Shown here: one piece after another, positions 12,549 to 31,867 of the stretch
Numbering within the stretch: position 1 is the stretch's first letter
Layout: every line of letters begins with the position of its first letter
Source: an uncultured Bacteroidota bacterium
GTDB lineage: Bacteria; Bacteroidota; Bacteroidia; 2-12-FULL-35-15
DNA length: 64,000 nucleotides
Assembly: GCA_903926385.1 (NCBI GenBank)
Contig: CAIYIS010000080.1
Span: forward strand, 62,001 to 126,000
Direction of reading: 5' to 3'
Notes under the pieces: generated by a model
What the model was told of the DNA's origin: nothing
The model's input: the letters and a program-made list of their open reading frames with translations, nothing else
The model's database searches: none
Position numbers and translations under genes: made by a program

Positions 12549-13115
12549 ATGAGTGAGCCAGTAAAAGTGGAGTCGGTAATGAAGTGGTATGTTATCAGAG
12601 CTATCAGCGGACAGGAAAAGAAGGTGAAGCATCAGATAGAAGTGGAGATAAGCCGAATGGGACTGAGCAATAACGTAGCTCAAATATTAATTCCTACCGA
12701 AAAAGTTTACCAATTACGCAACGGAAAAAAAGTTACTAAAGAACGTCCTTTTTACGGAGGATATATCTTAATTGAAGCTGCTCTGGTAGGTGAGGTTCCT
12801 CACACAATAAAAAATGTTACCGGTGTTATCGGATTTTTGGGTGAAACCAAAGGCGGTGCTCCTGTACCTATGCGTTTGTCCGAAATTAACCGTATCCTTG
12901 GTACTGTGGATGATTTGGCCGAAAGCGATGCTCAAATAAGCATTCCTTTTATTGTTGGCGAAACAGTAAAAGTTATAAACGGGCCTTTCAGCGGTTTTAC
13001 AGGAACCATCGAAAAAGTGTTTGAAGACAAGAAAAAGCTAGAAGTTATGGTTAAAATATTTGGCCGTAAAACTCCTCTCGAACTAGGTTATCTGGAAGTA
13101 GAGAAAGAAGCTTAA
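12549..13115 (+). CDS. nusG: transcription antitermination factor NusG
   Basis: 188 aa. NGN domain from about residue 11 (MKWYVIRAISGQEKKV) to about 115, then a KOW domain at about 130-185 (GETVKVINGPFSGFTGTIEKV). It binds RNA polymerase, raises processivity and links to Rho or ribosomal S10. Two ATGs are possible (12549 and the internal one before KWYVIRA); the first is kept because spacing to secE is normal. A strong terminator follows at once, so the transcript ends here instead of running on toward rplK. Confidence 0.96.
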   Translation: MSEPVKVESVMKWYVIRAISGQEKKVKHQIEVEISRMGLSNNVAQILIPTEKVYQLRNGKKVTKERPFYGGYILIEAALVGEVPHTIKNVTGVIGFLGETKGGAPVPMRLSEINRILGTVDDLAESDAQISIPFIVGETVKVINGPFSGFTGTIEKVFEDKKKLEVMVKIFGRKTPLELGYLEVEKEA

Positions 13116-13140
13116 TTAAGTTTATTAATTAATACACCAA

Positions 13141-13176
13141 AATCCCGCTCTGAGCCATCAGAGCGGGATTTTTTTT
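13141..13176 (+). terminator. intrinsic terminator after nusG
   Basis: Stem AATCCCGCTCTGA/TCAGAGCGGGATT with a 4-nt loop and eight T residues. Confidence 0.9.
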
Positions 13177-13496
13177 GAAATTTATGTACCAAAACTGATA
13201 TCTATCATATCCCTATGTTTTGATTTGTAAGTTTAAGGTTGTTACTTAGCGCCCTCAATTCCTTATAATAAATTAGTAAAATAAAATCTACTTGAAACAT
13301 TGAAACTCGTTCGTTTGCAGGTGAAAAAACACCTGCAAAGGCATCGTTTCTGCAAAATTTAGAGAGGAAGTATGGAACACCAACAAGGGCTAATATATTC
13401 ACGGATATAGTAGCTCAATCGAATAACTTAATATGGCAGTCGTATCAATCAGATAATTGTATCCGTAATACACCATCAAATCTCAAATTTCCGTTA

Positions 13497-14687
13497 ATGT
13501 TAGCAACAATTGGAAATTCTTGGGATTTTTCTATTCCTGTCCCTCCTAGCCCTCTAGAAGTTATCCAATGGTATGCAGATGGCAATTCCGGACCTTGTCC
13601 ATCAAGCCTGATTACATTATATAATACTACGAAGCAAGGAATTAATTTTCAAGGAAATTTTACAGGAGGTCAGGCTTCTTGTTTAAATGCTTGGGAAGAT
13701 AATAATTATGGTTGGGATTTGTTTTACGGTTCAATAAATCGGCTTTTGTACGATGAGCCTTCTAATGATATTGACAAATGTAGGATGGCAGCAATATTAA
13801 GCGATGCACCTGACTACCCAGGTGGACCCTTTTATCGATCTTTTGGAAGCGGAGATCATGGTGTATCGGGGTGGAGATCAAGTCGAAGGTTTTTTGATGG
13901 TTATCCAACTCAACGGGATGGTGATGATGATTTTATGGGTAATTTTAATGGTCTTGATTATATGTTATTTCACAATCTCTATTATTTAGAAAACGACCCT
14001 CAACAATCTCATATTTCTCTTATTATGAGTTCACTATTTTACCAATTTAATGGATGGACTTACACCATAGGCCCACCTTTTATTAATTTGAATCAATTTC
14101 AAAACATATTAGTAGACAATACAGCAATTGCTCATTATCAGTCTATCTATGGCTCTGCAATAATAGTTGGTGGTTCGCAAGGGGTTACAATTGGTGATAA
14201 TGTTATTGTAGAAGAAGGAGCCTCGTTAGATGTACATAATGATATTGGTTGTTCTGTAAGTCAAGATTCCTATGTGTTTAATTCAAGCGCTTATAGGTCA
14301 ATGATTACAAACTCTTCACAGGACTCTACTTCAAACACATTAATCGTATCCCATTCGAACAACAACGTTGACCATTCATTGGCTCCGTATATGATGTCCA
14401 ATGAGTTTAAAACTGATTTTAAAGGGGAATATAATTTATCAAATTATCCGAATCCATTTAATGATAATACAACTATAGCTTTTAGTATAAAAGAAAAAGC
14501 AAATGTGAATATTACGGTAACAGATATATATGGAAAAGAGTTAGAGGAGCTAGTTAATAATGCGTCATACGAAAAAGGGAATTATACAGTTAATTTAAAT
14601 TCTGCTAAATTTGCAGCTGGAATTTATTATTGCCAAATGAAGGCTAATGAATTTTCAAAAACAATTAAATTAATTATCGCTAAATAA
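13497..14687 (+). CDS. T9SS-secreted protein of unknown function, probably 5' truncated
   Basis: 396 aa from the first ATG. Residues about 30-170 are rich in Trp, Asp, Gly and Tyr and match no family I recognise. The last 80 residues are a T9SS type A sorting domain (NYPNPFND... GIYYCQMKANEFSKTIKLI). There is no signal peptide, which a T9SS substrate needs. The same frame stays open upstream to 13296 and codes plausible protein there (for example LERKYGTPTRANIF), but has no start codon; a TGA closes it at 13293. So the gene has probably lost its 5' end at the island edge or holds a frameshift. It precedes a YCF48 protein gene by 10 nt. Confidence 0.6.
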   Translation: MLATIGNSWDFSIPVPPSPLEVIQWYADGNSGPCPSSLITLYNTTKQGINFQGNFTGGQASCLNAWEDNNYGWDLFYGSINRLLYDEPSNDIDKCRMAAILSDAPDYPGGPFYRSFGSGDHGVSGWRSSRRFFDGYPTQRDGDDDFMGNFNGLDYMLFHNLYYLENDPQQSHISLIMSSLFYQFNGWTYTIGPPFINLNQFQNILVDNTAIAHYQSIYGSAIIVGGSQGVTIGDNVIVEEGASLDVHNDIGCSVSQDSYVFNSSAYRSMITNSSQDSTSNTLIVSHSNNNVDHSLAPYMMSNEFKTDFKGEYNLSNYPNPFNDNTTIAFSIKEKANVNITVTDIYGKELEELVNNASYEKGNYTVNLNSAKFAAGIYYCQMKANEFSKTIKLIIAK

Positions 14688-14697
14688 AAACAGCCTT

Positions 14698-15876
14698 ATG
14701 AAAAAACTACTATTAATAATTTCAATTGCATTTTCAATTCACGCTAATGCACAATGGGTGCAGCAAACATCAGGGACATCTGTAAATCTTTCATCCATTT
14801 TTTTCCCAACTCCTGTTAAGGGATATTCTTTACAAGATGACGGTTTGATGAATAAAACGAGTAACGGAGGTAGCAATTGGGGTATAGCGAGCACTTACCA
14901 ATCTATGGTTGGGCAATTGTTTTTTACAAGTGCAGATACCGGATTTGCAACAAGTGCGAGTGGCGTTAGAAAAACAGTAAACGGTGGTATTTCTTGGCAA
15001 AATAATTTTCCTGATTCAGTTAATATTCTTTCAATTCATTTTCCTACCTCAAACATTGGTTATGCTCTTGGAACAAATCTAACGTATGATACTTTATATA
15101 TTTATAAAACAATAAATGGGGGTAATAGTTGGTTTTCGGTTTATACACAGCTCTCATCGGGTTATCCTACCTATGTTTTTTTCACCGACCCGTCAACTGG
15201 TTTCATTAGTTTGAGTGACGGTATTTACAAAACTACTGACGGAGGAGTTACGTTGACTAAAAAATCAATTGCCACTATTATTAATTGTATTCATTTTCCG
15301 TCTGCTAACGTAGGATATGCAGTGGGTGACAGTCTTTTTAAAACAGTAGATGCTGGAGAAACATGGACAATACAGGCTAATCCTAATTCTGCTTTGTTTT
15401 TTTCTACTTACTTCCTAAACGACAATTATGGGTATGCTTGTGGGGGAAACAATTGGAATAGTGGGCTTATTGAAAAGACAGTGGATGGAGGAGTAAATTG
15501 GACTATTGACTTATCAAGTATTCAAATAATTCATTCCCTTTCGTTCCCCAACTCAAATACAGGCTACGCTTGTGGTACAGGGGGAGTGATTTACAAACTC
15601 ACAACATCAAACGGCATCACCGAAGCCCTTGATGCCACCACCCTAACTCTTTCGCCCAACCCTGTTACAAATCAATTAACCATTACCAGTCAAAAGGCAG
15701 CACTAAAAGAAATAAAAATAATGAACTCGTTAGGTCAATGTATGCTTGCATCTACTCCACTTGGTGGAGGTAAGGAGGGGCTTGTAGATATGAGTAGTTT
15801 GGCAAACGGTATTTACTTTATCCAACTAACAGACGAAAACAAAAACGTAATTAATAAAAAGATAATTAAAGAATAA
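14698..15876 (+). CDS. secreted YCF48-like beta-propeller protein with T9SS tail
   Basis: 392 aa. Signal peptide 1-18 (ending HANAQ), then about seven repeats of roughly 40 residues with the YCF48/BNR signature (SNGGSNWG, VNGGISWQ, INGGNSWF, VDAGETWT, VDGGVNWT), each preceded by a GY(A/S) strand, giving a propeller. Residues about 315-392 form a T9SS type A sorting domain (LSPNPVTNQL ... NGIYFIQLTDENKNVINKKIIKE). The YCF48 fold in photosynthetic organisms helps assemble photosystem II; here it is more likely a surface or secreted binding module. A paralogue lies at 17564-18763. Confidence 0.85.
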   Translation: MKKLLLIISIAFSIHANAQWVQQTSGTSVNLSSIFFPTPVKGYSLQDDGLMNKTSNGGSNWGIASTYQSMVGQLFFTSADTGFATSASGVRKTVNGGISWQNNFPDSVNILSIHFPTSNIGYALGTNLTYDTLYIYKTINGGNSWFSVYTQLSSGYPTYVFFTDPSTGFISLSDGIYKTTDGGVTLTKKSIATIINCIHFPSANVGYAVGDSLFKTVDAGETWTIQANPNSALFFSTYFLNDNYGYACGGNNWNSGLIEKTVDGGVNWTIDLSSIQIIHSLSFPNSNTGYACGTGGVIYKLTTSNGITEALDATTLTLSPNPVTNQLTITSQKAALKEIKIMNSLGQCMLASTPLGGGKEGLVDMSSLANGIYFIQLTDENKNVINKKIIKE

Positions 15877-15997
15877 ACCCATGTTCCCTTTTGGAGCCAT
15901 ATTATTTTCTAAAACTTTGCCAAGAGGCAGGGGTAGAAAAATAATAAACTCCCAAGAACAATTACCCTCAGAGCAGGAAAAACAGGCAGCGGGACAA

Positions 15998-16375
15998 ACG
16001 GAAATGCGCTCCGCATTATCGAAAATGCTCAGCTCATTACCTAAAATGGTGAAAGGATTAGCCGAAATGCTGGCGGCATTAGCGCTAATGCCGTCAGCAT
16101 TCGGGCTAGGGAAATGTTCCCTAAAGGTAGGGGCGGCATCCCTGGGTTTAGTCACCTTGTGCCCGGTTTGGGGCATGGGAGCAGTAAAGTTGGCCCTGCG
16201 GGAGTCGGGCAGGGGGTGGAGTGCCTTGGGCTTGTCCCATCTTCGCCAAACTTCGAGAGCACCTCCCCCAATGTGGGCATAGTGTGCACTCAGGCCGTGG
16301 CTGAGGCCTAACTTTAGTCCCGCCATGCCTACCGTTAGGGAGCATATCCCTAAAGTTGGTCACCAAGCCTCAAAT
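15998..16375. repeat. array A: about 17 degenerate 21-bp units with dyad cores
   Basis: GC-rich tract that divides into 21-nt units from 15998. Core sites sit at unit junctions as an arm, four variable bases and the complementary arm: TTA-GCGC-TAA (16079), CTA-AAGG-TAG (16121), CTA-CCGT-TAG (16329). Early units are also hairpin-like inside (AAATGC...GCATTA). The period holds, with one slip of about 2 nt near 16.29-16.31 kb. Arms drift from CATTA/TAATG to CCCTA/TAGGG along the array. A frame through the first 13 units is open and reads as heptapeptides (KMLSSLP, KMVKGLA, EMLAALA), but it stops at 16282 while the units continue. No cas genes and no unique spacers, so not CRISPR. Confidence 0.75.
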
Positions 16376-16429
16376 CATCGTGATAACATTCTTTATCAAT
16401 ACATTAATAAACATAAAAAAATACGAATA

Positions 16430-16464
16430 GCCCCTCAACCTCTTTTTTAGAATCAGAGTGGGGC
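16430..16464 (+). promoter_or_regulatory. 5' hairpin ahead of the small gene at 16481
   Basis: GCCCCTC ... GAGTGGGGC can pair around a T-rich loop, 17 nt before the ATG. A similarly placed hairpin precedes the second small gene (31141-31179). Could be a leader structure or translation control; function unknown. Confidence 0.4.
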
Positions 16465-16480
16465 AAAAACAAAGAATAAT

Positions 16481-17152
16481 ATGGCTATAGCTAATTTTCC
16501 TGAAAAATTAGAAGAAAAAAACACTTATTATATAGGTGCCCGAAGCAGGATAGGGTTAAACATGACGAGGTTGGGAGTAACTACCGATAACAAGGATTTA
16601 CTCGATAACCTTATGGATGACGCGAACGGCTGGATAGCCGTTAAAACTAAACATTCTTCAGAAGACGGTAACACCACCACCGTTCAAAAAAGATTGGATG
16701 AGTTAGTTGGTCTGGTGGAAAATCAATTTAAAGTAATTTATGCAGATATACCTGCTTCAAGTATTAATTCGGAAGACAAAACTGTGTTTCGTTTTAATGC
16801 CGGAACCAGCACTCATGGCCACATAGTGGCTCAAAGTGTGCCGGGTGAATTAACAGTAGAGGAGTCTCATCATTTGAGTCATAAATTAAGGATTAGAAAT
16901 CCGTTAACTCCTTCGAGCGATGCTATGCCACATGGCAATAGTGCAAGAATATGGACAGCTGTAATGGCCAAAAAAGTGGATGCAAGCCAGATTACCTGGA
17001 GCGATAATCCTAAAAAAGCCACTACTCGTTTTTTCTCACAATCATTTACCGAAACTCAGGTAGGTATGTTTGCCGCATACAAAACCTGTTACGAAAATCA
17101 GACAGGAGAGCAGGGCACTCCCAGCGAACCCATCTGGATGCCTATTTGGTAA
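16481..17152 (+). CDS. small array-associated protein A, unknown function
   Basis: 223 aa, no signal peptide and no membrane segment. The N-terminal 90 residues look helical (TTVQKRLDELVGLVENQF); then comes a beta-rich part (YADIPASSINSEDKTVFRFN onward) that ends KTCYENQTGEQGTPSEPIW. That ending resembles the last strands of a fibronectin-III-like domain and matches, by eye, the end of the 220-aa protein at 31205-31867 (KT..HNTAGAGPESAP). Both genes follow a 21-bp array and a hairpin and end in a CCCGCTC/GAGCGGG terminator. I do not recognise the family. Cytoplasmic location is inferred from the lack of export signals. Confidence 0.6.
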   Translation: MAIANFPEKLEEKNTYYIGARSRIGLNMTRLGVTTDNKDLLDNLMDDANGWIAVKTKHSSEDGNTTTVQKRLDELVGLVENQFKVIYADIPASSINSEDKTVFRFNAGTSTHGHIVAQSVPGELTVEESHHLSHKLRIRNPLTPSSDAMPHGNSARIWTAVMAKKVDASQITWSDNPKKATTRFFSQSFTETQVGMFAAYKTCYENQTGEQGTPSEPIWMPIW

Positions 17153-17177
17153 ATCCGGGTTGGTGTATCATTTCAAA

Positions 17178-17212
17178 AAAAAATCCCGCTCAGCAATGAG
17201 CGGGATTTTTTT
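17178..17212 (+). terminator. intrinsic terminator after small protein A
   Basis: AAAATCCCGCTCA/TGAGCGGGATTTT stem with a 4-nt loop and a long T run. Confidence 0.9.
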
Positions 17213-17425
17213 TATTGATTATTTTTTATTGGCTATTGATTATTGGCTATTGATTATTGCCTATTCGCTATTCGCTAATGCAAAATTGCCTACTGCAAAA
17301 TTGTAGAATTCCATCCCCCTATTGCCTTTTCGCTATTCGCTATTCGCTACTGCAAAATTGCTACTGCAAAATTGTAGAATTCCATCCCCCTATTGCCTAT
17401 TCGCTATTCGCTAATGCCTAATTGA
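17213..17425. repeat. direct and short tandem repeats (37-bp exact repeat, 71-bp period)
   Basis: A 37-bp block beginning CTACTGCAAAATTGTAG is present identically at 17290-17326 and 17361-17397, within runs of (T)ATTGGCTATTGATTA and CTATTCGCTATTCG. Related AT-rich words (CAATTGGGCAATT, GGCAATA) recur at 29.86-29.90 and 30.07-30.18 kb. No coding content. Confidence 0.8.
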
Positions 17426-17531
17426 ACAATAGCCAAAGGTAACAAAGATTGAAAAGCGATGAAAGGCAAAAAAGTAGGCATCAAAATGCGAATAGGATTG
17501 AATTCATGAAATATTTAAAACAAAATTAAAT

Positions 17532-17539
17532 TAATTTTG
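17532..17539 (+). promoter_or_regulatory. -7 element TAATTTTG for the YCF48 gene
   Basis: TAnnTTTG match 24 nt before the ATG at 17564. No clear -33 TTG. Confidence 0.45.
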
Positions 17540-17563
17540 TGCCGAATTTTATAACCAACCAAA

Positions 17564-18763
17564 ATGAAAAGAAATTTATTAATCCTAATCCTTGCCTGGT
17601 CAAGCAGTACTTATGCGCAGTGGTTTCCGCAAATAAGCGGTACTAATAGTTATCTTTATTCTGCCTCCTTTCCTGATGCGTTGCACGGTTGCGCTGTTGG
17701 AAACGATGCCATTCAAGGTGCCATGGTAAGAACCGTTGATGGCGGAACCAACTGGAATGCGGTTACACTTCCTACCACTTCTCCTCTTTATGGGGTTAGT
17801 TTTCCATCGTTAACCACTGGTTATGCAGTAGCCGATACAGGTGTAATAATTAAAACTACTGATGGCGGAGCCAATTGGGTTACTCAAACTTCTACAACCC
17901 TACATTCGTTATCGGGTGTTTATTTCAGAGATACATTAACCGGCTATGCTGTGGGAACGTTAGGTACTATTTTGCGAACCAATAATGGAGGCGCAAATTG
18001 GGCATTGCAGAATGTTGGCACCAACCACTTGTATGGAGTGCATTTTCCATCCGCAGCCATTGGTTATGCTGTGGGAAATGCAGGAAGTATCTTGAAAACG
18101 GTAGATTCGGGAGCAACCTGGATGACTCAGTTGAGTGGAACAGCTCAAAATCTGCGCGGACTTTATTTTACTAGCGTGGATACAGGATATGCGGTGGGTT
18201 ATGCCGGAACAGTGCTGAAAACAGTGAATGGAGGAACCAACTGGACTGTTGTGCCAAGCGGGATAACAAATATCATCTTCTCTGTTCAGTTTCTGACCTC
18301 TAATTTAGGTTATATAACCACTACAGTAGGGCATGTATTGAAAACCACCAATGGCGGAGTAACTTGGACGACACAACCAACTGGACTCACTCATTCAATG
18401 CGAAAAGTATTTATGATAGATGCAAATGTTGGTTATTGTGTAGGCGATTCGGGTAAGGTTATCAAAACAACTACCGGAGGCGCCAGTACAGTTGGTATTG
18501 CCGACATTAACCAGAATAATTTTGGAAATTCTTGTTTGATACACCCTAGCCCCGTTAGCAGTTTATTAACCATCAATTTTAGCGCAGAACAAAGAAACAC
18601 CAGTCTGATAATTACAGATGTTTTAGGAAATATTGTTCATCAATCTACAATCAATACACGCCAATATATGATGGACATGAGCAACTTTGCCAGCGGAGTT
18701 TATTTCGTGCGGATAGAAGATGTGAATAAAAATTTGGTGAATAAGAAGATAATCAAGGATTAA
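17564..18763 (+). CDS. secreted YCF48-like beta-propeller protein with T9SS tail (second copy)
   Basis: 399 aa. Signal peptide 1-18 (ending TYAQ). Seven clear repeats of about 42 residues, each with GYAVG and a (T/N)(D/N)GG(A/T)NW signature, form a closed propeller up to about residue 315; a T9SS type A sorting domain follows (IHPSPVSSLL ... ASGVYFVRIEDVNKNLVNKKIIKD). It parallels the protein at 14698-15876 but its repeats are more regular. It has its own -7 element and its own terminator, so it is monocistronic. Role unknown; probably extracellular or surface-attached. Its tail is close to the gene relic at 35623. Confidence 0.87.
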   Translation: MKRNLLILILAWSSSTYAQWFPQISGTNSYLYSASFPDALHGCAVGNDAIQGAMVRTVDGGTNWNAVTLPTTSPLYGVSFPSLTTGYAVADTGVIIKTTDGGANWVTQTSTTLHSLSGVYFRDTLTGYAVGTLGTILRTNNGGANWALQNVGTNHLYGVHFPSAAIGYAVGNAGSILKTVDSGATWMTQLSGTAQNLRGLYFTSVDTGYAVGYAGTVLKTVNGGTNWTVVPSGITNIIFSVQFLTSNLGYITTTVGHVLKTTNGGVTWTTQPTGLTHSMRKVFMIDANVGYCVGDSGKVIKTTTGGASTVGIADINQNNFGNSCLIHPSPVSSLLTINFSAEQRNTSLIITDVLGNIVHQSTINTRQYMMDMSNFASGVYFVRIEDVNKNLVNKKIIKD

Positions 18764-18783
18764 CAAATTGAACTGTTGATAAA

Positions 18784-18816
18784 AAAACTCCGAACCTTTT
18801 TGTTCGGAGTTTTTTA
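18784..18816 (+). terminator. intrinsic terminator after the YCF48 gene
   Basis: AACTCCGAAC/GTTCGGAGTT stem with a 6-nt loop, then a T run. Confidence 0.9.
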
Positions 18817-18855
18817 TTTGCTATAACTCGCCAAAAAAATATTTCAAGGGTGATG

Positions 18856-18885
18856 TTGTATATATTAAATAGTTTTTTACCTTTG
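18856..18885 (+). promoter_or_regulatory. promoter of the rplK-rpoC operon
   Basis: TTG at 18856-18858, a 19-nt spacer and TACCTTTG at 18878-18885. The leader to rplK would be about 140 nt. It supplies the ribosomal operon with its own start, which is needed because nusG ends in a terminator 5.7 kb upstream. Confidence 0.65.
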
Positions 18886-19034
18886 CCCTCCCAAAAAAAA
18901 TAGCGTTCATAAAAATGTTATAAAATAAAGGGTGGTATTAAGCTTCCATTAGTACTATTAACAGGGGTTTTAAAAGAAATAAACAAGTATTGTAACGATA
19001 TTTTTTACGCAGTACTAAACACACAAATACAAAA

Positions 19035-19478
19035 ATGGCAAAAGAAGTAAGTGCAATGATTAAGTTGCAAATAAAAGGAGGAGCAGCAAATCCGTCACCT
19101 CCAATTGGTCCTGCATTGGGAGCAAAAGGTGTGAACATTATGGAGTTTTGCAAGCAGTTTAATGCAAGAACTCAGGATAAAGCCGGAAAAGTAATTCCTG
19201 TTATCATCACAGTTTATAACGATAAATCGTTTGAATTTATTACTAAAAATCCACCGGTAGCTGTTTCGTTATTGGAGATTACAAAAGTAAAACAAGGTTC
19301 AAAAGAATCAAATCGATTGAAAGTAGGTAATGTTACTTGGGCACAGATACGCGAAGTAGCCGAAGCAAAAATGCCGGATTTAAATTGTTTTACAATTGAA
19401 TCAGCAATAAGCATGGTAGCTGGTACAGCTCGCAGTATGGGTTTAACCATAACCGGAGAATCTCCGTTGAAAAAATAA
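19035..19478 (+). CDS. rplK: 50S ribosomal protein L11
   Basis: 147 aa. N-terminal domain with the Pro-rich [20 protein letters not shown] segment (about 18-37, target of thiostrepton-type antibiotics with 23S rRNA helices 43/44) and C-terminal rRNA-binding domain to EISTAR-like [10 protein letters not shown]. It forms part of the GTPase-associated centre of the large subunit. First gene of the rplK-rplA-rplJ-rplL-rpoB-rpoC operon. Confidence 0.98.
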
Positions 19479-19605
19479 TTTTAGAATTTTAGATTTCGAG
19501 AATTTTAAAATTAATTCTGCCAATCAACACATTTCTAAAACAACAATTAAATTAACAGGTGGAGCCCGATAATGTAAGGCGTTTGAACACCATAAATTAA
19601 TACGA

Positions 19606-20298
19606 ATGAAAATTTCAAAGAAAAGAAAAGCCGCAATGGCTAAGTATGATGCAACAAAATCATACACTGTAGCAGAAGCTGCAAAAATTATCAAAGACAT
19701 CACTTCAGTAAAATTTGATGCTTCAGTAGAAATAAGCGTGAGATTAGGAGTTGACCCTCGTAAAGCAAATCAAATGGTTCGTGGTTCGGTAACATTACCG
19801 CATGGTTCAGGTAAAACAATGCGTGTTTTGGCATTGGTTACACCAGATAAAGAGGCTGAAGCAAAAGCTGCAGGAGCTGATTTTGTGGGATTGGACGAGT
19901 ACATCGAAAAAATTAAAGGTGGCTGGACCGATGTTGATGTTATTATCACTATGCCATCAGTAATGGGTAAAGTTGGAGCTTTGGGTCGTGTGTTGGGACC
20001 TCGCGGATTAATGCCAAACCCAAAAACAGGAACTGTTACTATGGAAGTAGGAAAAGCGGTAACTGAATCGAAAGGCGGTAAAATCGATTTCAAAGTTGAT
20101 AAAGCTGGTATTGTTCAGGCATTGGTTGCAAAAGCATCATTCGACTCAAACAAAATAGCTGACAACGCAAACGAATTATTACAAACCATCATGAAACTTA
20201 AACCGTCATCGGCAAAAGGAACTTATGTAAGAAGCATCTATATGTCTTCTACTATGAGTCCAAGTGTTCAGATTGACTCTAAGTTTTTAGGTCAGTAA
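19606..20298 (+). CDS. rplA: 50S ribosomal protein L1
   Basis: 230 aa, normal length. Conserved [26 protein letters not shown] (about 36-61) in domain I and the MPNPKTGTV signature (about 140) are present. L1 binds the 23S stalk that guides exit of deacylated tRNA and, in other bacteria, represses its own mRNA. The 127-nt gap after rplK holds a short possible stem (GGTG...CACC around 19558-19591) that could be a regulatory site, not certain. Confidence 0.98.
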
Positions 20299-20326
20299 TA
20301 TTCGATAAATAAACACGAATAATAAA

Positions 20327-20393
20327 CACCCCGGAAAGAGTAAATGCTCAGGGGATAAAAACATTATCTGAACAGGCTTCCACTGAACAGATA
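20327..20393 (+). promoter_or_regulatory. probable L10-type leader upstream of rplJ
   Basis: Two consecutive stems: CCCC..GAG/CTCA-GGGG and ATCTG/CAGAT, in the gap where bacterial rplJ-rplL leaders that bind the L10-L12 complex are found. Assigned by position and shape, not by consensus matching. Confidence 0.45.
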
Positions 20394-20411
20394 TATTAAT
20401 AAACAACAGAA

Positions 20412-20936
20412 ATGAAAAAAGAAGATAAAACAGTAGTAATAGATTCGCTGGTAAAGCAATTAGCTGATAACAGTCATTTCTATTTGACCGATGTGGCTTC
20501 TTTAACTGCTGACAAAACATCACAGTTAAGAAGATTATGTTTTTCAAAAAACATCAAAATGCTTGTCGTTAAAAATTCGTTGCTTCAAAAAGCAATGGAG
20601 CGTAGCGAAGGCAAAGATTATCAACCGTTGTATGGCTCATTGAAAGGCTCAACAGCAATTATGTTTTCAGAAACAGGCAGCGATCCTGCAAAACTTATCA
20701 AGGAATTCCGTTCCAAAAACGATAAGCCTGTATTGAAAGCAGCATTTGTTGAGGAATGTGTTTACATAGGCGATGATCAATTGGATGTGTTGGCAAGCAT
20801 CAAATCGAAAAATGAGCTTATTGGCGACATTATCGGGTTGTTGCAGTCTCCTGCTAAAAATGTTATTTCAGCTCTTAAATCGAGCGGAGGTAAATTGGCA
20901 GGTATTGTAAAAACATTATCGGAAAAACCGGAATAA
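20412..20936 (+). CDS. rplJ: 50S ribosomal protein L10
   Basis: 174 aa. N-terminal rRNA-binding domain (VIDSLVKQLADNSHFYLTDVASLTADKTSQLRR, like the family region that contacts helices 42-44) and a C-terminal helix that carries L7/L12 dimers. It forms the base of the stalk. rplL starts 72 nt after its stop. Confidence 0.96.
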   Translation: MKKEDKTVVIDSLVKQLADNSHFYLTDVASLTADKTSQLRRLCFSKNIKMLVVKNSLLQKAMERSEGKDYQPLYGSLKGSTAIMFSETGSDPAKLIKEFRSKNDKPVLKAAFVEECVYIGDDQLDVLASIKSKNELIGDIIGLLQSPAKNVISALKSSGGKLAGIVKTLSEKPE

Positions 20937-21008
20937 GAATCGAAAAAAAACAAGTAAAGTAACTAAAGTAATAAAAATAGTAATTAACAATTAAAACAAT
21001 AAATAAAA

Positions 21009-21383
21009 ATGGCAGATTTAAAATCGTTCGCAGAGCAATTAGTAAACTTAACAGTAAAAGAAGTTAATGAATTAGCTCAAATTTTAAAAGATGAGTATGG
21101 TATCGAACCAGCAGCAGCAGCAGTAGCAGTAGCAGTAGGTGGTGGTGCAGGAGCAGCAGCAGTTGCTGAAAAAACAGCTTTTGATGTAATGCTTGTTGAA
21201 GCAGGTGCAGCAAAATTAGGTGTTGTTAAAATCGTAAAAGATTTAACAGGATTAGGATTGAAAGAAGCTAAAGATTTAGTGGATGGCGCTCCAAAACCAG
21301 TTAAAGAAGGAGTTTCTAAAGAAGAAGCTGAGTCAATTAAAAAACAATTAGAAGAGGCAGGAGCAAAGATTGAGATTAAATAA
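21009..21383 (+). CDS. rplL: 50S ribosomal protein L7/L12
   Basis: 124 aa. N-terminal dimerisation helices ([23 protein letters not shown]), an Ala-rich hinge (about 38-58) and the C-terminal globular domain that recruits translation GTPases ([36 protein letters not shown]). Full length. Confidence 0.98.
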
Positions 21384-21415
21384 GCTGCCGGCAAATACAC
21401 AATAATAAAGGTCTG

Positions 21416-21446
21416 GACCTCATCCCCGAAATATAGGGATGGGGTC
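21416..21446 (+). terminator. attenuator hairpin between rplL and rpoB
   Basis: Stem GACCTCATCCC/GGGATGGGGTC with a 9-nt loop, then CCCTTTTGTTG. Placed as the rplL-rpoB attenuator that in other bacteria reduces transcription into rpoBC relative to ribosomal protein genes. Confidence 0.65.
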
Positions 21447-21540
21447 TAAGCCCTTTTGTTGTTTATAGTTGTTTTATCTTATTAACCAGGCATGGTGTTT
21501 ATCTTCGAAAAGATAAAATCATGCTAAAATCTTTAAAATC

Positions 21541-24500
21541 GTGGCTCAACCAAAAAAAAACCAAAGAATAAGTTTCGCGTCTATAAAAAGTCAAATTGAT
21601 TACCCTGACTTTTTGGACATCCAACTTAAATCGTTTCAAGACTTTTTTCAGTTAGAAACTACATCTGAAAATCGTCAAAACGAAGGATTGTACAAAGTTT
21701 TCGCAGAGAATTTTCCAATCTCCGATGCACGTAATAACTTCGTGCTCGAATTTTTAGATTATTTTATTGATCCTCCCCGCTATTCACTCGAAGAGTGTAT
21801 TGAGCGTGGTTTGACATACAGCGTACCGCTAAAAGCGAAAGTGCGTTTGTACTGTACAGACCCGGAACATGAGGATTTTGAAACAATCGTTCAGGATGTG
21901 TATTTGGGAACTATTCCTTATATGACACCTAAAGGCACATTTGTTATCAATGGTGCTGAACGCGTTATTGTTTCTCAGTTACACCGTTCACCAGGTGTAT
22001 TCTTTGGTCAAAGCCGTCACGCAAACGGAACAAAACTTTATTCGGCACGTGTAATTCCTTTCAAGGGCTCGTGGATAGAGTTTTCTACCGATATCAACAG
22101 TGTGATGTATGCTTACATTGACCGTAAGAAAAAATTACCGGTTACCACATTATTAAGAGCTATCGGCTTTGAAAGCGATAAACAAATTCTCGAAATATTT
22201 GGATTAGCTGATGAAATAAAAGTTAGTAAACCAGGCTTAAAAGCCGTGCTTGGCCGTAAACTGGCAGCAAGGGTATTGAAAACTTGGATTGAAGACTTTG
22301 TGGATGAAGATACCGGTGAGGTGGTTTCGATAGAACGTAACGAGGTTATTATTGACCGCGAAACTATTCTTGAGGAAAAACACATTGATTTGATTATTGA
22401 TGCAAACGTTAAATCTGTAATTCTTCATAAAGAAGATATCAATGCAGGTGACTATGCAATTATATATAACACATTACAGAAAGATACTTCCAACTCTGAA
22501 AAAGAAGCTGTGGAGCATATCTATCGTCAGTTGCGTAACGCTGAACCACCAGATGAAGAAACAGCTCGTGGTATTATCGACAAATTATTTTTCTCTGACA
22601 AACGTTACGATTTAGGTGAAGTAGGTCGTTACAGAATCAACAAAAAGTTGAATCTGACAACACCAATGGATCATAAAACATTGACCAAAGAAGACATTAT
22701 CTGTATCATCAAGTATCTGATTGAGCTAATCAATTCGAAAGCTGATGTGGATGATATTGACCACTTAAGTAACAGACGTGTTCGTACAGTTGGAGAGCAA
22801 TTGTATTCTCAGTTTGGAGTAGGTTTAGCTCGTATGGCTCGTACCATTCGTGAGCGTATGAACGTTCGTGATAACGAGGTGTTCACTCCAACCGATTTGA
22901 TTAATGCTAAAACATTATCATCAGTTATCAACTCTTTCTTTGGAACCAATCAGTTGTCACAATTTATGGATCAAACCAACCCACTGGCAGAACTTACGCA
23001 CAAGCGCAGGCTCTCCGCCCTAGGGCCAGGTGGTTTATCCAGAGAGCGTGCCGGATTTGAGGTGCGTGACGTTCACTATACTCACTACGGACGTTTGTGT
23101 ACGATAGAAACTCCCGAAGGACCAAACATTGGTTTGATTTCTTCGTTGTGTGTATTTGCGAAAATAAACAAACTAGGATTTATTGAAACTCCATACATGA
23201 CTGTTACAGACGGTAAGGTGGATGTAGATAAAGGTGTAATTTATTTAAGCGCTGAAGAAGAAGATTCGAAAACAATTGCGCAGGCAAATGCTCCGATAGA
23301 TGCAAAAGGTAACTTTGTTGATGCAAAAGTAAAGGCTCGTTACGAAGGGGATTTCCCGGTTGTAGATCCTGAAAAATTGCATTTAATGGACGTTGCTCCA
23401 AATCAAATTGCATCGATAGCAGCATCGCTTATTCCTTTCCTTGAACATGATGATGCTAACCGTGCCCTAATGGGATCGAACATGCAACGTCAGGCCGTTC
23501 CATTGCTTCGTCCGGAGGCTCCTATTGTAGGAACCGGATTAGAGCCATTGGTAGCTCGCGATTCGAGAGTTCTTATCAACTCAGAAGGAGAAGGAGTAGT
23601 AGAGTACGTTGATTCAAACGAAATAGTAATACGTTACAGCCGTTCGGAAGATGAGAAATTAATCTCGTTTGAAGAGGATGTAAAGCGTTATAAACTTACC
23701 AAGTTCCGCAAAACCAACCAGAGTACATGTATCAACCTTAAACCGATTGTGAAAAAAGGTGAACGTGTTACTAAAGGACAGGTATTGTGCGATGGTTATG
23801 CAACTCAAAACGGTGAATTAGCTTTGGGTCGTAACATGAAAGTGGCGTTCATGCCATGGAAAGGTTACAATTTTGAGGATGCGATTGTAATTTCGGAACG
23901 TGTAGCACGTGAAGATATCTTTACATCGGTTCACATTGATGAGTATTCATTGGAGGTACGTGATACAAAACGCGGACTGGAAGAATTAACTTCGGATATT
24001 CCAAACGTTTCGGAAGAAGCTACAAAAGACCTTGACGAAAACGGATTGATACGTATTGGTGCGGAAGTAAAAGAAGGAGATATATTAATCGGAAAAATTA
24101 CTCCGAAAGGAGAAACCGACCCTTCTCCGGAAGAAAAACTATTACGTGCTATCTTTGGTGATAAAGCAGGTGATGTGAAAGATGCTTCGTTAAAAGCGCC
24201 TCCATCATTACGTGGTATCGTAATCGATAAAAAATTATTCTCCAGAATAATTAAAGATAAAAAGACTAAATCGGAAGAAAAACCTTTGTTGGAAAAAATC
24301 GACAAAGAACATGCAGTTGAAATGGCAGCGTTGAAAGAAAAGTTGGTTGACAAACTTACTAGTCTGGTAAACGGAAAAACATCTCAAGGTGTGTACAATC
24401 TGATGAAGGAAGAAGTAGTAGGCAAGAGTATCAAGTTTACACAAAAAATACTTGAGAAAATTGACTTTACTGGTGTAAATCCTGGTAAATGGACAACTGA

Positions 24501-25350
24501 TAAAGAGATAAACGAGAAGATTAAAATTTTGCTTCACAATTATCTTATCAGATATAACGATTTATTAGGTTCGTACAAACGCAAGAAATTTGCAGTAACC
24601 ATTGGTGATGAGTTACCATCAGGTATTATGCAGCTTGCTAAAATTTACATTGCTAAAAAACGTAAATTAAAAGTAGGGGATAAAATGGCGGGTCGTCACG
24701 GTAACAAGGGTATTGTTGCTCGTATTGTTCGCGATGAGGATATGCCTTTCTTAGATGACGGAACACCGGTTGATATTGTGTTGAATCCATTAGGGGTGCC
24801 TTCGCGTATGAACCTTGGTCAGATATATGAAACTGTTTTGGCTTGGGCCGGAAAAACATTGGGAGAGAAATTCTTTACCCCGATATTTGACGGAGCAACC
24901 ACCGATCAGCTGAATGAGTGGACAGACAAAGCAGGCTTGCCTCGCTATGGCCGTACATTCTTAACAGATGGCGGAACAGGAGAGAAATTCGATCAGCCGG
25001 CTACAGTAGGTATTATCTACATGCTTAAACTGGGCCACATGGTGGATGATAAGATGCACAGTCGTTCTATCGGACCATACTCATTGATTACACAACAACC
25101 TTTGGGCGGTAAAGCTCAGTTTGGAGGTCAGCGTTTTGGTGAGATGGAGGTTTGGGCACTCGAAGCATTTGGAGCAGCCAATATACTACAGGAAATTCTG
25201 ACTATTAAATCGGATGATGTGGTAGGACGTGCTAAAGCTTACGAAGCTATAGTAAAAGGCGAAAACATGCCAACTCCGGGAATCCCTGAATCGTTCAACG
25301 TATTGTTGCACGAGTTAAGAGGATTGGGATTGAACATTTCGCTTGACTAA
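21541..25350 (+). CDS. rpoB: DNA-directed RNA polymerase subunit beta
   Basis: 1269 aa, the usual length in Bacteroidota. Starts at GTG after a leader that holds the attenuator. Seen in order: the N-terminal lobes, the rifampicin region ([33 protein letters not shown] in short, about 466-500), the catalytic-face segments ([13 protein letters not shown], about 786) and the C-terminal clamp motif ([44 protein letters not shown] in short). The rifampicin-region residues are of the normal sensitive type (Q-L-S, D, H, R, S conserved). Confidence 0.98.
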
Positions 25351-25455
25351 ATAAGTTTATTGTTTAAAGTTTGAAAGTTACACATTTAGTAACTTTTGAA
25401 CTTTAAACTTAACAACTTCGAACATTAAACTATTTAACTTTTAAACTAATTATAA

Positions 25456-28400
25456 ATGGCTTTCAAAAGAGATCATAAATTAAAAAGTAATTTCTCGAAA
25501 ATTACCATCAGTCTTGCATCACCAGAAGCAATTTTGGAGCGATCGAGCGGTGAGGTAGTAAAACCGGAAACCATCAATTACAGAACATACAAACCAGAAA
25601 TGGGCGGTTTGTTTTGTGAGCGTATATTCGGGCCGGTAAAAGATTGGGAGTGTGCTTGCGGAAAATATAAACGTATTCGTTATAAAGGCATCGTGTGCGA
25701 CCGTTGCGGTGTGGAGGTAACAGAGAAAAAAGTGCGTAGAGAGCGCATGGGACACATAGCACTTGTGGTTCCGGTGGCTCATATCTGGTACTTTAAATCA
25801 TTGCCTAACAAAATCGGTTATCTATTAGGTCTTCCTACAAAGAGACTTGATATGATTATCTACTACGAGCGTTATGTAGTAGTAAATCCGGGAGTAAAAG
25901 CAGCTGATGGTGTTAACTACCTTGATTTTTTATCAGAGGAAGAATACCTGAACATATTAGAAACATTACCGAAAGAAAATCAATACCTGGATGATGAAGA
26001 CCCAAACAAGTTTATCGCTAAGATGGGTGCTGAAGCGTTACAAGCGTTATTGAGCCGTGTTGATTTAGACTCGTTATCTTTCGACTTACGTCACAAAGCC
26101 AATACTGAAACTTCGCAGCAACGTAAAAACGAAGCGTTGAAGAGACTTCAGGTGGTAGAAGGCTTCCGCCATGCCAACGAGCATGTGGAAAATCGTCCGG
26201 AATGGATGATTGTAAAAATCGTACCGGTTATTCCACCGGAATTGCGTCCGTTAGTTCCATTGGATGGCGGTCGTTTTGCAACGTCAGATTTAAATGATTT
26301 GTACAGACGTGTTATTATCCGTAACAACCGTTTGAAACGATTAATAGAAATTAAAGCACCAGAAGTAATCTTACGTAACGAAAAACGTATGCTTCAGGAG
26401 TCGGTAGATTCATTATTCGACAACTCTCGTAAATCGAATGCTGTTAAAACAGAATCGAACCGTGCGTTGAAATCGTTATCCGATTCATTGAAAGGTAAAC
26501 AAGGTCGTTTCCGTCAGAACTTATTGGGTAAACGTGTGGATTATTCGGCTCGTTCGGTAATTGTCGTTGGGCCTGAATTGAAATTGCACGAATGCGGATT
26601 GCCAAAAGATATGGCAGCAGAGTTATTCAAACCATTTATCATTCGTAAAATGATTGAGCGTGGTGTGGTAAAAACTGTAAAATCTGCAAAGAAAATAGTT
26701 GATAAAAAAGAACCAATTGTTTGGGATATTTTGGAAAACGTGTTGAAAGGACATCCAGTTCTTTTGAATCGTGCTCCGACATTGCACAGATTGGGTATTC
26801 AGGCTTTCCAACCAAAATTAATTGAAGGAAAAGCGATACAATTGCACCCGTTAACTTGTACTGCGTTTAACGCGGATTTTGACGGTGACCAGATGGCGGT
26901 TCACGTTCCGTTGGGACATGCTGCTATATTGGAAGCTCAACTATTGATGCTTGCTTCGCACAATATTTTGAACCCTGCTAATGGTGCTCCGGTGGCTGTA
27001 CCTTCTCAGGACATGGTGCTTGGTTTGTATTACATGACCAAAGGAAAGAAAAACACGAAAGACGAAGTTGTAAAAGGCGAAGGTTTGGTGTTCTATTCTC
27101 CGGAAGAAACTGTAATAGCTTACAACGAAAAGAAAGTAGATTTGCATGCATGGGTAAAAGTACGTTTGCAAGTAAAAGAAGGTGATAAAATGGTTACCAA
27201 ATTAATTGAAACCACTGTAGGGCGTATTTTATTCAATAAAGTAGTTCCTGAAGAAGTAGGTTATATCAATGAATTGTTAACTAAAAAATCGTTGCGCGAC
27301 ATTATCGGAAACATTGTGAAAGAAACCGGAATGGCGAAAACAGCGAAATTTTTGGACGAAATAAAAACATTAGGTTATATGCATGCGTTCCGCGGAGGCT
27401 TGTCGTTTAACCTAGGCGATGTGGTTATTCCGGAAGACAAAGGAAAAATGATTGCTGATGCAAATGCTCAGGTGGAAGAGGTGGTAGGAAACTACAATGC
27501 CGGTTTCATCACTAATAACGAGCGTTACAATCAGATTATCGATATCTGGACACATACCAACTCTCGTATCACAGCTAAGGTGTTGAATACATTGACCAAC
27601 GACCGTCAGGGATTCAATCCGGTGTTTATGATGCTTGACTCAGGGGCGAGGGGTTCGAAAGAGCAAATTCGTCAGTTAGGTGGTATGCGTGGATTGATGG
27701 CTAAACCTCAAAAAGGTGCAGGTGGAGGAGAGATTATCGAAAATCCGATTCTTTCGAACTTTAAAGAAGGACTATCCATCTTGGAGTACTTTATCTCTAC
27801 TCACGGTGCGCGTAAAGGACTTGCGGATACGGCTCTTAAGACAGCTGATGCGGGTTACTTAACACGTAGGTTGGTTGACGTGGCTCAGGACGTAATTATC
27901 ACTATCGAAGACTGTGGTACATTGCGTGGACTTGTGGCTACTCCATTGAAGAAAAATGATGAGGTTGTAGAATCGTTATACGACAGAATTTTGGGTAGAA
28001 CCACTGTTCATGATGTGTACAACCCGCTTACAGGAAAATTAATTATTGCTTCGGGTGAAGAAATTACTGAAGATTTTGCGAAAGAAATAACTACCTCACC
28101 TATCGAATCAGTAGAAATACGTTCGGTGTTGACATGCGAAAGTAAAAACGGAGTATGTGGTAAATGTTACGGACGTAACCTTGCTACTGGCCGAATGGTA
28201 CAACGCGGAGAGGCTGTAGGTGTTATTGCTGCTCAGTCTATCGGTGAGCCGGGAACACAGCTTACATTACGTACGTTCCACGTTGGAGGTGTTGCGGGTG
28301 GATCTGTGGCTTCGTCTAAACTAGAAGCTAAATATGATGGTTTACTGGAAATAGACGAATTAAAAACTGTAAAACGTAAATCGGGTAAAGAAATTGTTGA

Positions 28401-29742
28401 TGTGGTTATCGGTCGTTCGGCTGAGGTGCGCATTATCGATGCTACTACCAAGATTGTATTAACCACAGGAAATATTCCTTACGGTTCGCAAGTATATGTA
28501 GCTGGTGAAACCAAAATTAAAAAAGGTACATTAATATGCGACTGGGATCCGTATAACGCGGTGATTGTTTCGGAATTTGCAGGTAAACTGGAATTCGAAA
28601 ATATTGAAGAAGGTATTACTTTCCGTGAAGAATCGGATGAGCAAACCGGATTTAAGGAAAAAGTGATTGTTGAAAGCCGTGATAAATCAAAGAACCCTGC
28701 GATTAAAATTATGGTGAACAAGGAAGTGGTACGTACGTACAACATTCCGGTAGGCGCTCACGTTATTGTAAACGATAAAGACAAAATCGAAACCGGTCAG
28801 ATATTGGTTAAAATTCCTCGTTCTTCTGGTAAAACAGGAGATATCACGGGAGGTTTACCACGTGTTACCGAGTTGTTCGAGGCTCGTAACCCAAGTAACC
28901 CGGCTGTGGTTTCCGAAATTGATGGTATTGTTACATTTGGTAAGATTAAACGTGGTAACCGTGAGGTGTTCGTTGAATCGAGAACAGGTGAAAAGAAAAC
29001 ATACCTTGTTCAGTTGAGTAAACACATCCTGGTACAGGAAAACGATTTCATTAAAGCTGGAGAAGCATTGTGCGATGGAGCTATTACTCCTGCCGACATA
29101 CTTGCTATCAAAGGGCCTACTGCAGTGCAGGAATATCTGGTAAACGAGGTACAAGAGGTATACCGTTTGCAAGGGGTGAAAATTAATGATAAACACTTTG
29201 AGGTAATTGTTCGTCAGATGATGCGTAAAGTTGACATCAGCGAAGCAGGAGATTCTACTTTCCTTGAAAAACAGCTTATCAATAAAGCTAATTTCATGGA
29301 AGAAAATGATAACTTGTACGGAAAAGTGGTAATTACTGATGCAGGAGAATCTACATTGTTTAAAGCAGGACAGATTATCAGTGCACGTAAACTAAGAGAC
29401 GAAAACTCTTCTATGAAACGTAGAGATTTGAAACCTATAGTAGCTCGCGAAGCAGTTCCGGCCACATCTAATCAGGTGTTGCAAGGAATTACCAGAGCAT
29501 CGTTACAAACACAAAGCTTTATGAGTGCTGCATCGTTCCAGGAAACGACAAAAGTATTGAACGAAGCTGCTGTGGCAGGTAAAGAAGATCATTTGTTAGG
29601 ATTGAAAGAAAACGTTATTGTTGGACATTTAATCCCGGCAGGTACCGGATTGAGAATTTACGACAAATTAATTGTTGGTTCTCAGGAAGAGTACGACAGA
29701 TTAATGGCTTCTAAAAAAGAAGCAATGGAAGAACAAGCGTAA
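25456..29742 (+). CDS. rpoC: DNA-directed RNA polymerase subunit beta'
   Basis: 1428 aa. Zinc site 1 Cys66, Cys68, Cys81, Cys84 (CACG...CDRCG); catalytic NADFDGDQM with three Mg-binding Asp (about 473-481); second zinc cluster [13 protein letters not shown] (about 895-907); trigger-loop region near 910-940 ([25 protein letters not shown] in short). The C-terminal part carries the usual jaw and sandwich-barrel insertions. Follows rpoB by 105 nt and ends the operon at a strong terminator. Confidence 0.98.
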
Positions 29743-29772
29743 AATAGATTCCAAATTTCAAATTTCAAATTA

Positions 29773-29807
29773 AAGAGGAGTAACGAAAGTTGCTCCTCTT
29801 TTTTTGT
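29773..29807 (+). terminator. intrinsic terminator after rpoC
   Basis: Stem AAGAGGAGTAAC/GTTGCTCCTCTT closed by a GAAA tetraloop and followed by seven or more T. Confidence 0.9.
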
Positions 29808-29933
29808 GGTTGGGTGTTTAGTTGTGGTGGGAAATGGAGGGAGCGCAGTTCAATTGGGCAATTCTTCAATTGGGCAATTGGGCAGTAGGCAATAAACAAT
29901 AAACAATCAACCTTCGCCAATCACCAATCAAAA

Positions 29934-30064
29934 GAGATTCCTCACTACGTTCGGAATGACACGCAATATGAGGATACAGAAAGGGAAAAAAGTCGGCTTT
30001 GCCGACTTTTTTCCCGCCCCTACACTAAAGCTAGCCTGTCATTCAGAGCGAAGCGATGAATCTC
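29934..30064. repeat. 131-bp inverted-repeat element with inner 15-bp perfect hairpin
   Basis: Outer arms starting GAGATTCCTCACTACG and ending CGATGAATCTC are imperfect inverted copies (about 21 of 27). Inside, GGGAAAAAAGTCGGC-TTT-GCCGACTTTTTTCCC (29983-30015) is a perfect 15-bp stem with T run. The outer word, of the type GATTCC-TCGnnACGTTCGGAATGACA, is a dispersed non-coding repeat seen in many bacteria. Looks like a MITE; no transposase here. Confidence 0.65.
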
Positions 30065-30326
30065 TACAGTTCAATTGGGCAATTGTACAATTAAGCAATA
30101 GGCAATAATCAATCTCAAATCTAAAATCTCAATACTCATATCTAATTTGCCTACTGAATAATTGCAAGATTGCTTAATTGTTTTTAGCGCATCTCTTCTT
30201 ATTATCTTTCAGTTCTCACTCCGAACTTGCTCTTTTGCGAGTTTGGTTGCTCCCCCCTTATCCCCCCCCACAAATATAATACATATATATATATGTATAC
30301 TTAAAACTTATTCCAACCGTCACGCA
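30065..30326. other. AT-rich intergenic repeats, no gene
   Basis: Words such as CAATTGGGCAATTG and AAGCAATAGGCAATAA, then poly-C runs and an AT dinucleotide run (30278-30296). No credible coding frame. Confidence 0.5.
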
Positions 30327-30413: not shown

Positions 30414-30461
30414 AGTGGTGCTTACCTTGACAAATATCATATTTTTAAAAAATTTAATTTG

Positions 30462-30631: not shown

Positions 30632-30777
30632 AAGCCTTTATTAACAAGCCTTTCAGGGGCATTCTCCTTTCTTATTTTTTTGCTTTTTTTAGTGTTTTTG
30701 GTTCGGCTTATAGTTGGTTTGGCTCATCTCCATTTGTTAAAAAATACCCCCATTTTTGGCTAAAATATGCCCAAAAA

Positions 30778-31040
30778 TACAACTGTATGAATGGTTCATA
30801 CAACTGTATTTGCCATTTTTTGAACTGTATGAGGAGTTCATACAACTGTATTTGTCATTTTTTGAACTGTATGAGGGGTTCGTACAACCGTATTTGCTCC
30901 TTTACCAATCGTATTGGGTACGCATACAACCGTATTGAACCTTCTACCAACCGTATGCATGAGCTTTACGGTTGTAAACCTATTGATTACGGTTGTAAAC
31001 CATTTGCATACGATTGTAAAGGGAGTATTTACCATCGTAT
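30778..31040. repeat. array B: 13 units of exactly 21 bp with TAC-NNNN-GTA dyad cores
   Basis: Cores begin at 30778 and recur every 21 bp to 31030. All 13 end in GTA; nine begin TAC (the others TTG or ACC). Inner four bases run AACT (5), AACC/AATC/AACC/AACC, GGTT, GGTT, GATT, CATC. GGTT and GATT are the reverse complements of AACC and AATC, so three units are flipped while phase is kept. The 11-bp spacers vary, though some alternate (TATTTGCCATTT, TATGAGGAGTTC). Both strands show open frames reading as 7-residue units (YNCICHF; NTVVRTP), which any stop-free 21-bp period would give. Confidence 0.85.
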
Positions 31041-31140
31041 TTGGGCCTGTTTTTACCCTATTTTGATATATATTAATGTTATTCAGCATAATAACGATTT
31101 TTTGACGTAACATAAAACGACATTACAGAATGGAAAAAAA

Positions 31141-31204: not shown

Positions 31205-31867
31205 ATGTCAGCACGAGCTGTAAAAATTAAACGAAAGAACGACCAGGACAAACCTGGAGACGTTCAAAGCATTACCGAGACGGTAGGGGCCAACACCTCT
31301 ACCAGCACTATCACGGCTGTTGCGGCCAAAGGAGCTTTGGCTACCACTGCAGCCGGAACTCTGAGAACTTCTATTACAGACAACACAAACAAACACAATG
31401 CTGCCGTAGCCGCTACAGGGGTTATGCACAGCAAAAATGGGCTTGCAGCCGAGGCTTACAATAATTTGGCTGCTGTGGTAGAAATCGAAATTCCGAACGA
31501 TCCGGATGCCTGGAAAGCATTTGGATTTGAATTAACAAAAAGCGAAGCAACTGCGGTGCCGTTGCCGGGGCCGGTGGTAAACGGAGGAGTGAGCAATGGC
31601 GACTTTTTGGGTACTGCCGACATTCATCACGACCCAGTGGCGGGTGCTAAAAATTACACTCACCGTGTAACCAAAGGCGACCCTACCAAAGACGAATCGT
31701 ATATTGCTGTTACCAGTCCTACAGTGCAATATACCAAAAGCAGCGCTACTGTGGATGTTCCGGCAGATTACCTTAATGTGCCATTATTTTGGAAAACTAC
31801 GGCTCATAACACAGCCGGTGCAGGACCAGAATCGGCTCCTTATGGCGGTTGCCGCATAAACGGGTAA
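31205..31867 (+). CDS. small array-associated protein B, unknown function
   Basis: 220 aa, no signal peptide. Basic start (MSARAVKIKRKNDQDK), then an Ala/Thr-rich, probably helical part (about 35-95), then a beta-rich C-terminal part (VEIEIPNDPDAWKAFGFEL to the end) that looks like a fibronectin-III-type domain, closing with LFWKTTAHNTAGAGPESAP. The arrangement (helical N-half, D/EIP motif near 90-95, KT..N..G.G.. S.P near the end) parallels protein A at 16481-17152; the identity is low. Preceded by array B and a hairpin, followed by a CCCGCTC-type terminator. GC content is higher than in its neighbours. Function unknown. Confidence 0.6.
   Translation: MSARAVKIKRKNDQDKPGDVQSITETVGANTSTSTITAVAAKGALATTAAGTLRTSITDNTNKHNAAVAATGVMHSKNGLAAEAYNNLAAVVEIEIPNDPDAWKAFGFELTKSEATAVPLPGPVVNGGVSNGDFLGTADIHHDPVAGAKNYTHRVTKGDPTKDESYIAVTSPTVQYTKSSATVDVPADYLNVPLFWKTTAHNTAGAGPESAPYGGCRING

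Follow-up and report, generated by a model that had tools for sequence, protein, structure and literature searches.

Bacterial DNA elements are normally recognised by a shared sequence. The tandem array at positions 15998–16375 of the window (the whole stretch of 64,000 nucleotides analysed here, from an uncultured Bacteroidota bacterium) raises the question of what such an element conserves when it is not its sequence. The original prediction described it as an array of 21-bp units and proposed that period plus symmetry is the rule it keeps in common with a second array further downstream (arrays A and B, Table 1).

Table 1. Positions of the arrays, the leader and the family genes in the window
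Feature	Position	Strand	Description
Array A, strong part	16000..16187	.	~9 units of 21 bp, dyad axes every 10.5 bp
Array A, degenerate part	16188..16375	.	lag-21 z 3.7, 21-bp lattice shared with the strong part
Leader, array A to gene	16376..16480	+	promoter-like scan
Family gene behind array A	16481..17152	+	223 aa
Array B	30763..31060	.	21/42-bp lattice, unit sequence differs from array A
Second family gene of the window	31205..31867	+	220 aa, downstream of array B

The two arrays of the window

Base matches in array A were counted over 15998–16375 and compared with 1000 dinucleotide-preserving shuffles. They amount to 99, 160, 93, and 131 at lags 20, 21, 22, and 42, with z values of 1.0, 8.2, 0.4, and 5.9, respectively; the count at lag 21 was equalled by none of the shuffles, and its z value is 8.7 under simple base shuffles. 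The predicted coordinates thus hold, and lag 21 stands well apart from its neighbours. The signal is strong over about nine units (z 8.8 over 15998–16186) and weak thereafter. The dyad score of array A is 142, against a shuffle mean of 93.9 and a maximum of 109 (none of 200 as high), and the dyad phases, 37 and 16 on a scale of 42 half-steps, are separated by 10.5 bp. Taken by itself, the second half has a score that 5 of 200 shuffles attain and that is not clearly above chance. The high GC content that had been noticed is real (0.55 versus 0.358 for the window), and the drift of the arms, from AATG/CATT to AGGG/CCCT, is plain on reading the units. Less is left of the claim that early units fold internally: only 2 of the 17 units beat their own shuffles at p<0.05 (those at 16105 and 16336), while two early ones do so at p about 0.1.

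Array B is strongly periodic as well (over 30778–31050, z is 10.9 and 11.1 at lags 21 and 42, respectively) and has one diverged full-length sister in its own genome (G000:C9:83763-84052, 79% over 290 bp). The two arrays were said to share no sequence, and indeed array A gave no match at E<=0.001 to array B or to the rest of the genome, except its own inverted match. A scan of the leader of array A revealed no convincing Bacteroidetes-type promoter, the best score being 6/10. Just downstream of the family gene, positions 17213–17430 hold another tandem region, unrelated to array A, with periods of 7, 14, and 71, lag 14 being the strongest.

Period and symmetry in front of family genes

Both arrays precede genes of one family, the 220-aa product being a distant relative of the 223-aa product. 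Array B is among the 21-bp arrays, differing in sequence, behind which the own-genome paralogues of the latter stand. When 396 genomes of the class were searched with a profile of 18 members, 18 of them, from eight genera, contained the family. The family loci examined number 62, comprising 55 of the 69 profile-search rows and 7 loci found outside those rows, with 14 weaker rows left out; 61 of them, each with at least 168 bp of upstream DNA, entered the upstream analysis. The best of lags 10–60 was 21 or 42 in 60 of these 61, including three weak cases (L037, z 4.4 and 1.3 kb away; L021, z 4.7; L004, z 5.1), and the sole exception is L050. An array (z>6, within 700 bp) lies upstream of 53 of the 61 family genes and downstream of 2, compared with 15 and 9, respectively, of 215 other genes of at least 180 aa from the array's own genome (Fisher p 3e-34 for the upstream enrichment). 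Family arrays have a median of 9 units (8–15), and the median distance from the end of the array to the start codon is 125 bp.

Averaged over the 57 family arrays that have z>=5.5, the lag spectrum reaches 10.7 at lags 21 and 42, and lies between -1.2 and 1.0 at all other lags up to 48. A unit motif common to all arrays was considered and rejected, as the shared consensus holds 3.56 bits, only slightly above the 2.93–3.11 of column-permuted controls. Dyad complementarity on the best axis, which was chosen from the data, is 0.54–0.55 versus 0.26 elsewhere, and unit consensuses pair at 7 or more of 10 positions in 30 of the 57 arrays versus about 13% of shuffles; several arrays show no trace of a dyad. 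The proposed rule of period plus symmetry is therefore supported far beyond two arrays, with the period as its firmer half and dyad symmetry as a strong and frequent, not universal, tendency. Since what the loci share is geometry only, the arrays are invisible to sequence searches, and the constraint lies in the geometry of the helix.

Three other accounts of this geometry were rejected. A heptad-repeat coding sequence was rejected, since all six frames are interrupted in 31 of 103 arrays and the arrays are therefore not coding. DNA bending by 10.5-bp A/T phasing was rejected as well, the weak/strong signal being absent at lags 10–11. Nor did the hairpin or covariation reading implied by the original prediction survive: among 99 arrays, local complementarity was higher than that between adjacent units in 43 and lower in 50 (difference -0.0008, p 0.44), and with the axis taken from cross-unit data the compared values were 0.538 versus 0.553 on axis A and 0.554 versus 0.536 on axis B. 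As there is no unit-specific compensation, paired hairpins are not what selection keeps. Three arrays have a period of 41 rather than 42 (L089:14463-14840, L114:12349-12656, and L118:1877-2282), which means that the half-period departs at times from exactly two turns.

The missing compensation also bears on a possible role at the RNA level, in which the repeats, once transcribed, would act on the downstream product by binding or regulating it. Type III toxin-antitoxin systems also have a tandem array directly upstream of the toxin gene, and the place of the arrays before genes of about 220 aa is similar at the 53 of 61 family genes, with a gap below 60 bp at some loci, short for the usual promoter plus leader. 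On the other side, the exact 21-bp spacing is the number expected of B-DNA, many arrays have no such gene, and positions 13000–33000 of the window gave no Rfam match; strong promoter candidates (9–10 of 10) favour neither side, 4 of 53 loci having one between the array and its gene and 5 of 53 upstream of the array. In type III systems as described, RNA repeats neutralise an endoribonuclease (PMC5086642, PMC8860590); the present arrays differ from that description in their dsDNA-like lattice, in the architecture of the protein, and in lying mostly elsewhere. No ToxN/AbiQ-type endoribonuclease was matched by the family in Pfam, NCBIfam, or PHROG, an absence that excludes nothing; the C-terminal domain resembles FN3, and the N-terminus is poorly modelled. 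Altogether, an RNA-level role is very improbable.

Turnover of the units and a proposed binding platform

Unit sequences are specific to each locus. Between most loci, the profiles of the units resemble each other no more than permuted profiles do, a few pairs excepted, and array similarity grows with protein identity, from a mean of 0.29 without detectable identity to 0.55 above 70%. Even so close a pair as L033/L047, with proteins 76% identical and DNA 80% identical from 214 bp before the gene, has unrelated arrays (similarity 0.28). At L008/L009, conserved DNA flanks arrays that do not align: identity is 0.80 in the left flank, 0.86 in the leader, 0.76 in the gene, and 0.55 in the array (below the shuffled value of 0.65); these global alignments had free end gaps, and array values of 0.55–0.93 are to be read against shuffled values of 0.63–0.85. 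Before tRNA-Leu/prs, the window's own genome (G000) and G013 each carry an array at one and the same site, built of unrelated units (similarity 0.23), and no array was found upstream of prs in the genomes inspected for comparison, 4 further family-bearing and 9 family-less ones. Near position 1260 of the corresponding loci (L182, L185), the arrays of the two species directly adjoin the tRNA-Leu(caa) gene. At some orthologous sites, units have thus been wholly replaced while the 21-bp lattice was kept; at others they are partly conserved (0.92 for L046/L048, 0.80 for L005/L069). Length changes by whole units, as in L034/L045, which are 98% identical and offset by 63 bp, i.e. three units. Whole arrays are also copied, as in array B and its C9 sister, or in the L006 array and its sister G000:C81:73846-74100 (L178). 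The latter keeps a frameshifted remnant of the start of a family gene, which shows that an array and its gene can be duplicated together before the gene is lost.

The reading that we favour, at a probability of roughly 0.4, is that the array is a cis-acting, double-stranded and helix-phased binding platform, promoter-proximal for family genes, with a fast turnover of its units. Some 8–15 mostly dyad-symmetric sites, spaced exactly two helical turns (21 bp) apart, would allow a symmetric DNA-binding protein to line up along a single face of the helix. Before family genes, the lattice would act as a promoter-proximal control platform, and arrays elsewhere would be lattices of the same kind that lack a family gene one can recognise. 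Whole units and arrays would be gained, lost, and copied, which would renew the sequence and leave the geometry. The binding of a protein, its symmetry, and the family gene as its target are what we infer. The exact two-turn spacing, the dyads, and the promoter-proximal place together point to a double-stranded lattice for a symmetric protein. Fast turnover of the units suggests either that what persists is the lattice rather than its letters or that units and reader evolve together. The main objection to a platform is that a sequence-specific binder should hold its units constant, yet the L033/L047 arrays are unrelated; the binder must therefore read shape or co-evolve fast. No candidate gene for the binder was found: with a median pI of 7.0, the family proteins are close to neutral, and array-bearing genomes have no surplus of HTH_3 genes (5–14 matches in 5 of them versus 5–17 in 7 array-less ones). 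Promoters have no fixed position, and array and start codon show no helical phase (R 0.10, p 0.64).

A bolder form of the platform, which we consider somewhat unlikely, would make the arrays a bacterial counterpart of satellite chromatin, in which a two-turn protein coat would fix the 21-bp lattice at hundreds of chromosomal sites and leave the sequence free to turn over, and a fast-diverging family of FN3-domain proteins would be expressed from promoters beside these sites. In eukaryotic satellite DNA, as described, repeat length is often tied to the chromatin unit while sequence turns over (PMC8122249); the present arrays are similar in this kept length, but differ from what is described there in being bacterial, 21 bp in period, about nine units long, and placed beside genes. 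If such a protein lattice exists, it would amount to a period-locked, sequence-free chromosomal element in bacteria.

Occurrence within and among genomes

The search for further arrays, which had been suggested for the whole genome, found 20 in 349 kb of the own genome, or about 230 by extrapolation, so hundreds of loci in one genome have in common only the period and, mostly, dyad symmetry. A scan of 421 kb of this genome yielded 29 periodic clusters, with a best lag of 21 in 14 and of 42 in 7. Arrays occupy all kinds of intergenic places, and for 32 of 38 unselected arrays no family gene is detectable within 1.2 kb, so control of the family cannot be their sole role. Five of the 38 adjoin family-like genes, three of which (L074, L082, and L115) were labelled by eye only. 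That orphan arrays are relics of family genes was rejected, as one clear remnant was found among the 38 and none among 114 control segments.

Because most arrays have no detectable family gene, neutral or selfish minisatellites are a serious rival to the binding platform. A habit of replication or recombination would then make 21-bp tandem duplications, with no bound protein and no function, and the varied intergenic places, the length change by whole units, the copied arrays, and the rapid turnover would all follow. But the arrays lie upstream and not downstream of family genes, have a dyad tendency, and are partly conserved at some orthologous loci, and slippage by itself does not explain why the period should be exactly 21 at almost all loci; we therefore regard a neutral origin as unlikely. 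Locus-specific and fast-evolving tandem arrays scattered through a genome are also known from Borgs, whose repeats are rare in comparison host genomes and are described as having variable unit lengths and perfect A-rich units, about half of them lying inside genes (PMC9879509). Set against that description, the present arrays have a period of 21/42, an associated gene family, and degenerate, mostly dyad-symmetric units, and 39 of 57 family arrays are GC-richer than their flanks.

Genomes were compared at z>7, counting lags 21, 41, and 42. Twelve family-bearing genomes contain 40 arrays in 749 kb, spread over 26 of 38 stretches. In 13 same-genus genomes where no family member was detected, 661 kb contain none (0 of 36 stretches; Fisher p 4e-11). 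At z>6, the family-less set yields two weak lag-21 loci (z 6.8 and 6.5), and four family-bearing genomes (G117, G113, G201, and G091) showed no array in the 20–40 kb sampled. This co-occurrence is partly confounded with phylogeny, as the positive genomes of the genus mostly form one clade, with prs identities to the own gene of mostly 94–97% versus 85–91% in family-less genomes; G004 is at 93% (partial match) and G027, at 89%, is outside the main positive clade. Since positives also occur in other families (G038, G145, and G266), the link between array and gene family is not one event. Sister species without arrays are ready controls. In several family-less genomes, a repetitive frame after prs (L182–L196, near position 3000) has lag-21 scores of 6–8; it is probably rplY, a source of false positives in lattice scans.

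The absence of arrays where the family gene is absent would also suit a mobile element or recombination site, such as integron attC sites or REP elements, some of which are tied to RAYT genes, which encode a Y1-type transposase. Arrays are likewise palindromic and intergenic, have one gene family nearly always beside them, and have been copied as blocks between loci, once with a remnant of a gene start. Against this stand the unit sequence, which is not common to most loci, the lack of defined ends established for the arrays, and the lack of any transposase-like or integrase-like match among 18 family members (Pfam, NCBIfam, and PHROG), although the latter absence excludes nothing. REP palindromes are described as small, intergenic, and present in many copies (PMC3733652); there the sequence is common genome-wide, whereas the present arrays share geometry only and array A matches only itself. 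We consider a mobile element or recombination site very improbable, and the least credible of the explanations.

The family protein and possible readers

Arrays could also be locus-specific operators, each with its own small, co-evolving XRE-type regulator and with the two-turn spacing known from phage operators. Of 11 loci around coiled-coil HTH genes in array-bearing genomes, 8 have an array (9 counting a weak one), versus 0 of 9 in array-less genomes, and an HTH gene lies upstream at 6 of the 62 family loci. The same model finds none at the other 56, having missed at least two weak Pfam matches near L018 and L023, and the HTH_3 counts per array-bearing genome are far below some 230 arrays, i.e. 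too few readers; we consider such operators improbable. Iterons and tandem operator arrays, read by plasmid Rep proteins and phage repressors, have one sequence per system and an identified reader protein. Like the present arrays they consist of helix-phased sites about two turns apart next to a gene, and direct repeats at whole helical turns are found here at 21 and 42 bp, with a few at 41. They differ in that each has one read sequence, as opposed to the present arrays, of which a genome has about 230, unrelated in sequence, and for which no obvious reader gene was found.

The 223-aa protein itself belongs to no Pfam family and has no NCBIfam match above E 0.2; its only PHROG match is at E 0.37, and over 18 members PHROG matches are scattered and weak (best E 0.00087, to one member). 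AlphaFold models from three sequences are poor (mean pLDDT 45), with only the C-terminal part modelled and a poor N-terminus, and Foldseek found nothing at E<=0.001 with the predicted structure. The C-terminal domain is predicted to be FN3-like (fibronectin-III-like), with a best Z of 6.9 and an rmsd of 2.8 over 80 residues; as this domain fills the VIA structure list, absence from that list is uninformative on the N-terminus. Family members were not found in viral contigs (subfamily A4 as query), phages (window protein), or plasmids (L018 protein).

A word-based search of open-licence papers found no earlier description of such arrays, Borg tandem repeats and REP palindromes being the closest cases on record. 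They would appear to be a categorically new class of element, for which the mechanism set out above is a proposal. At the far end of the window, the frames of positions 50370–63996 make up what we take, from their motifs, to be a defence island, with restriction subunits and patatin-like, nucleotidyltransferase-like, and cyclase-like proteins.
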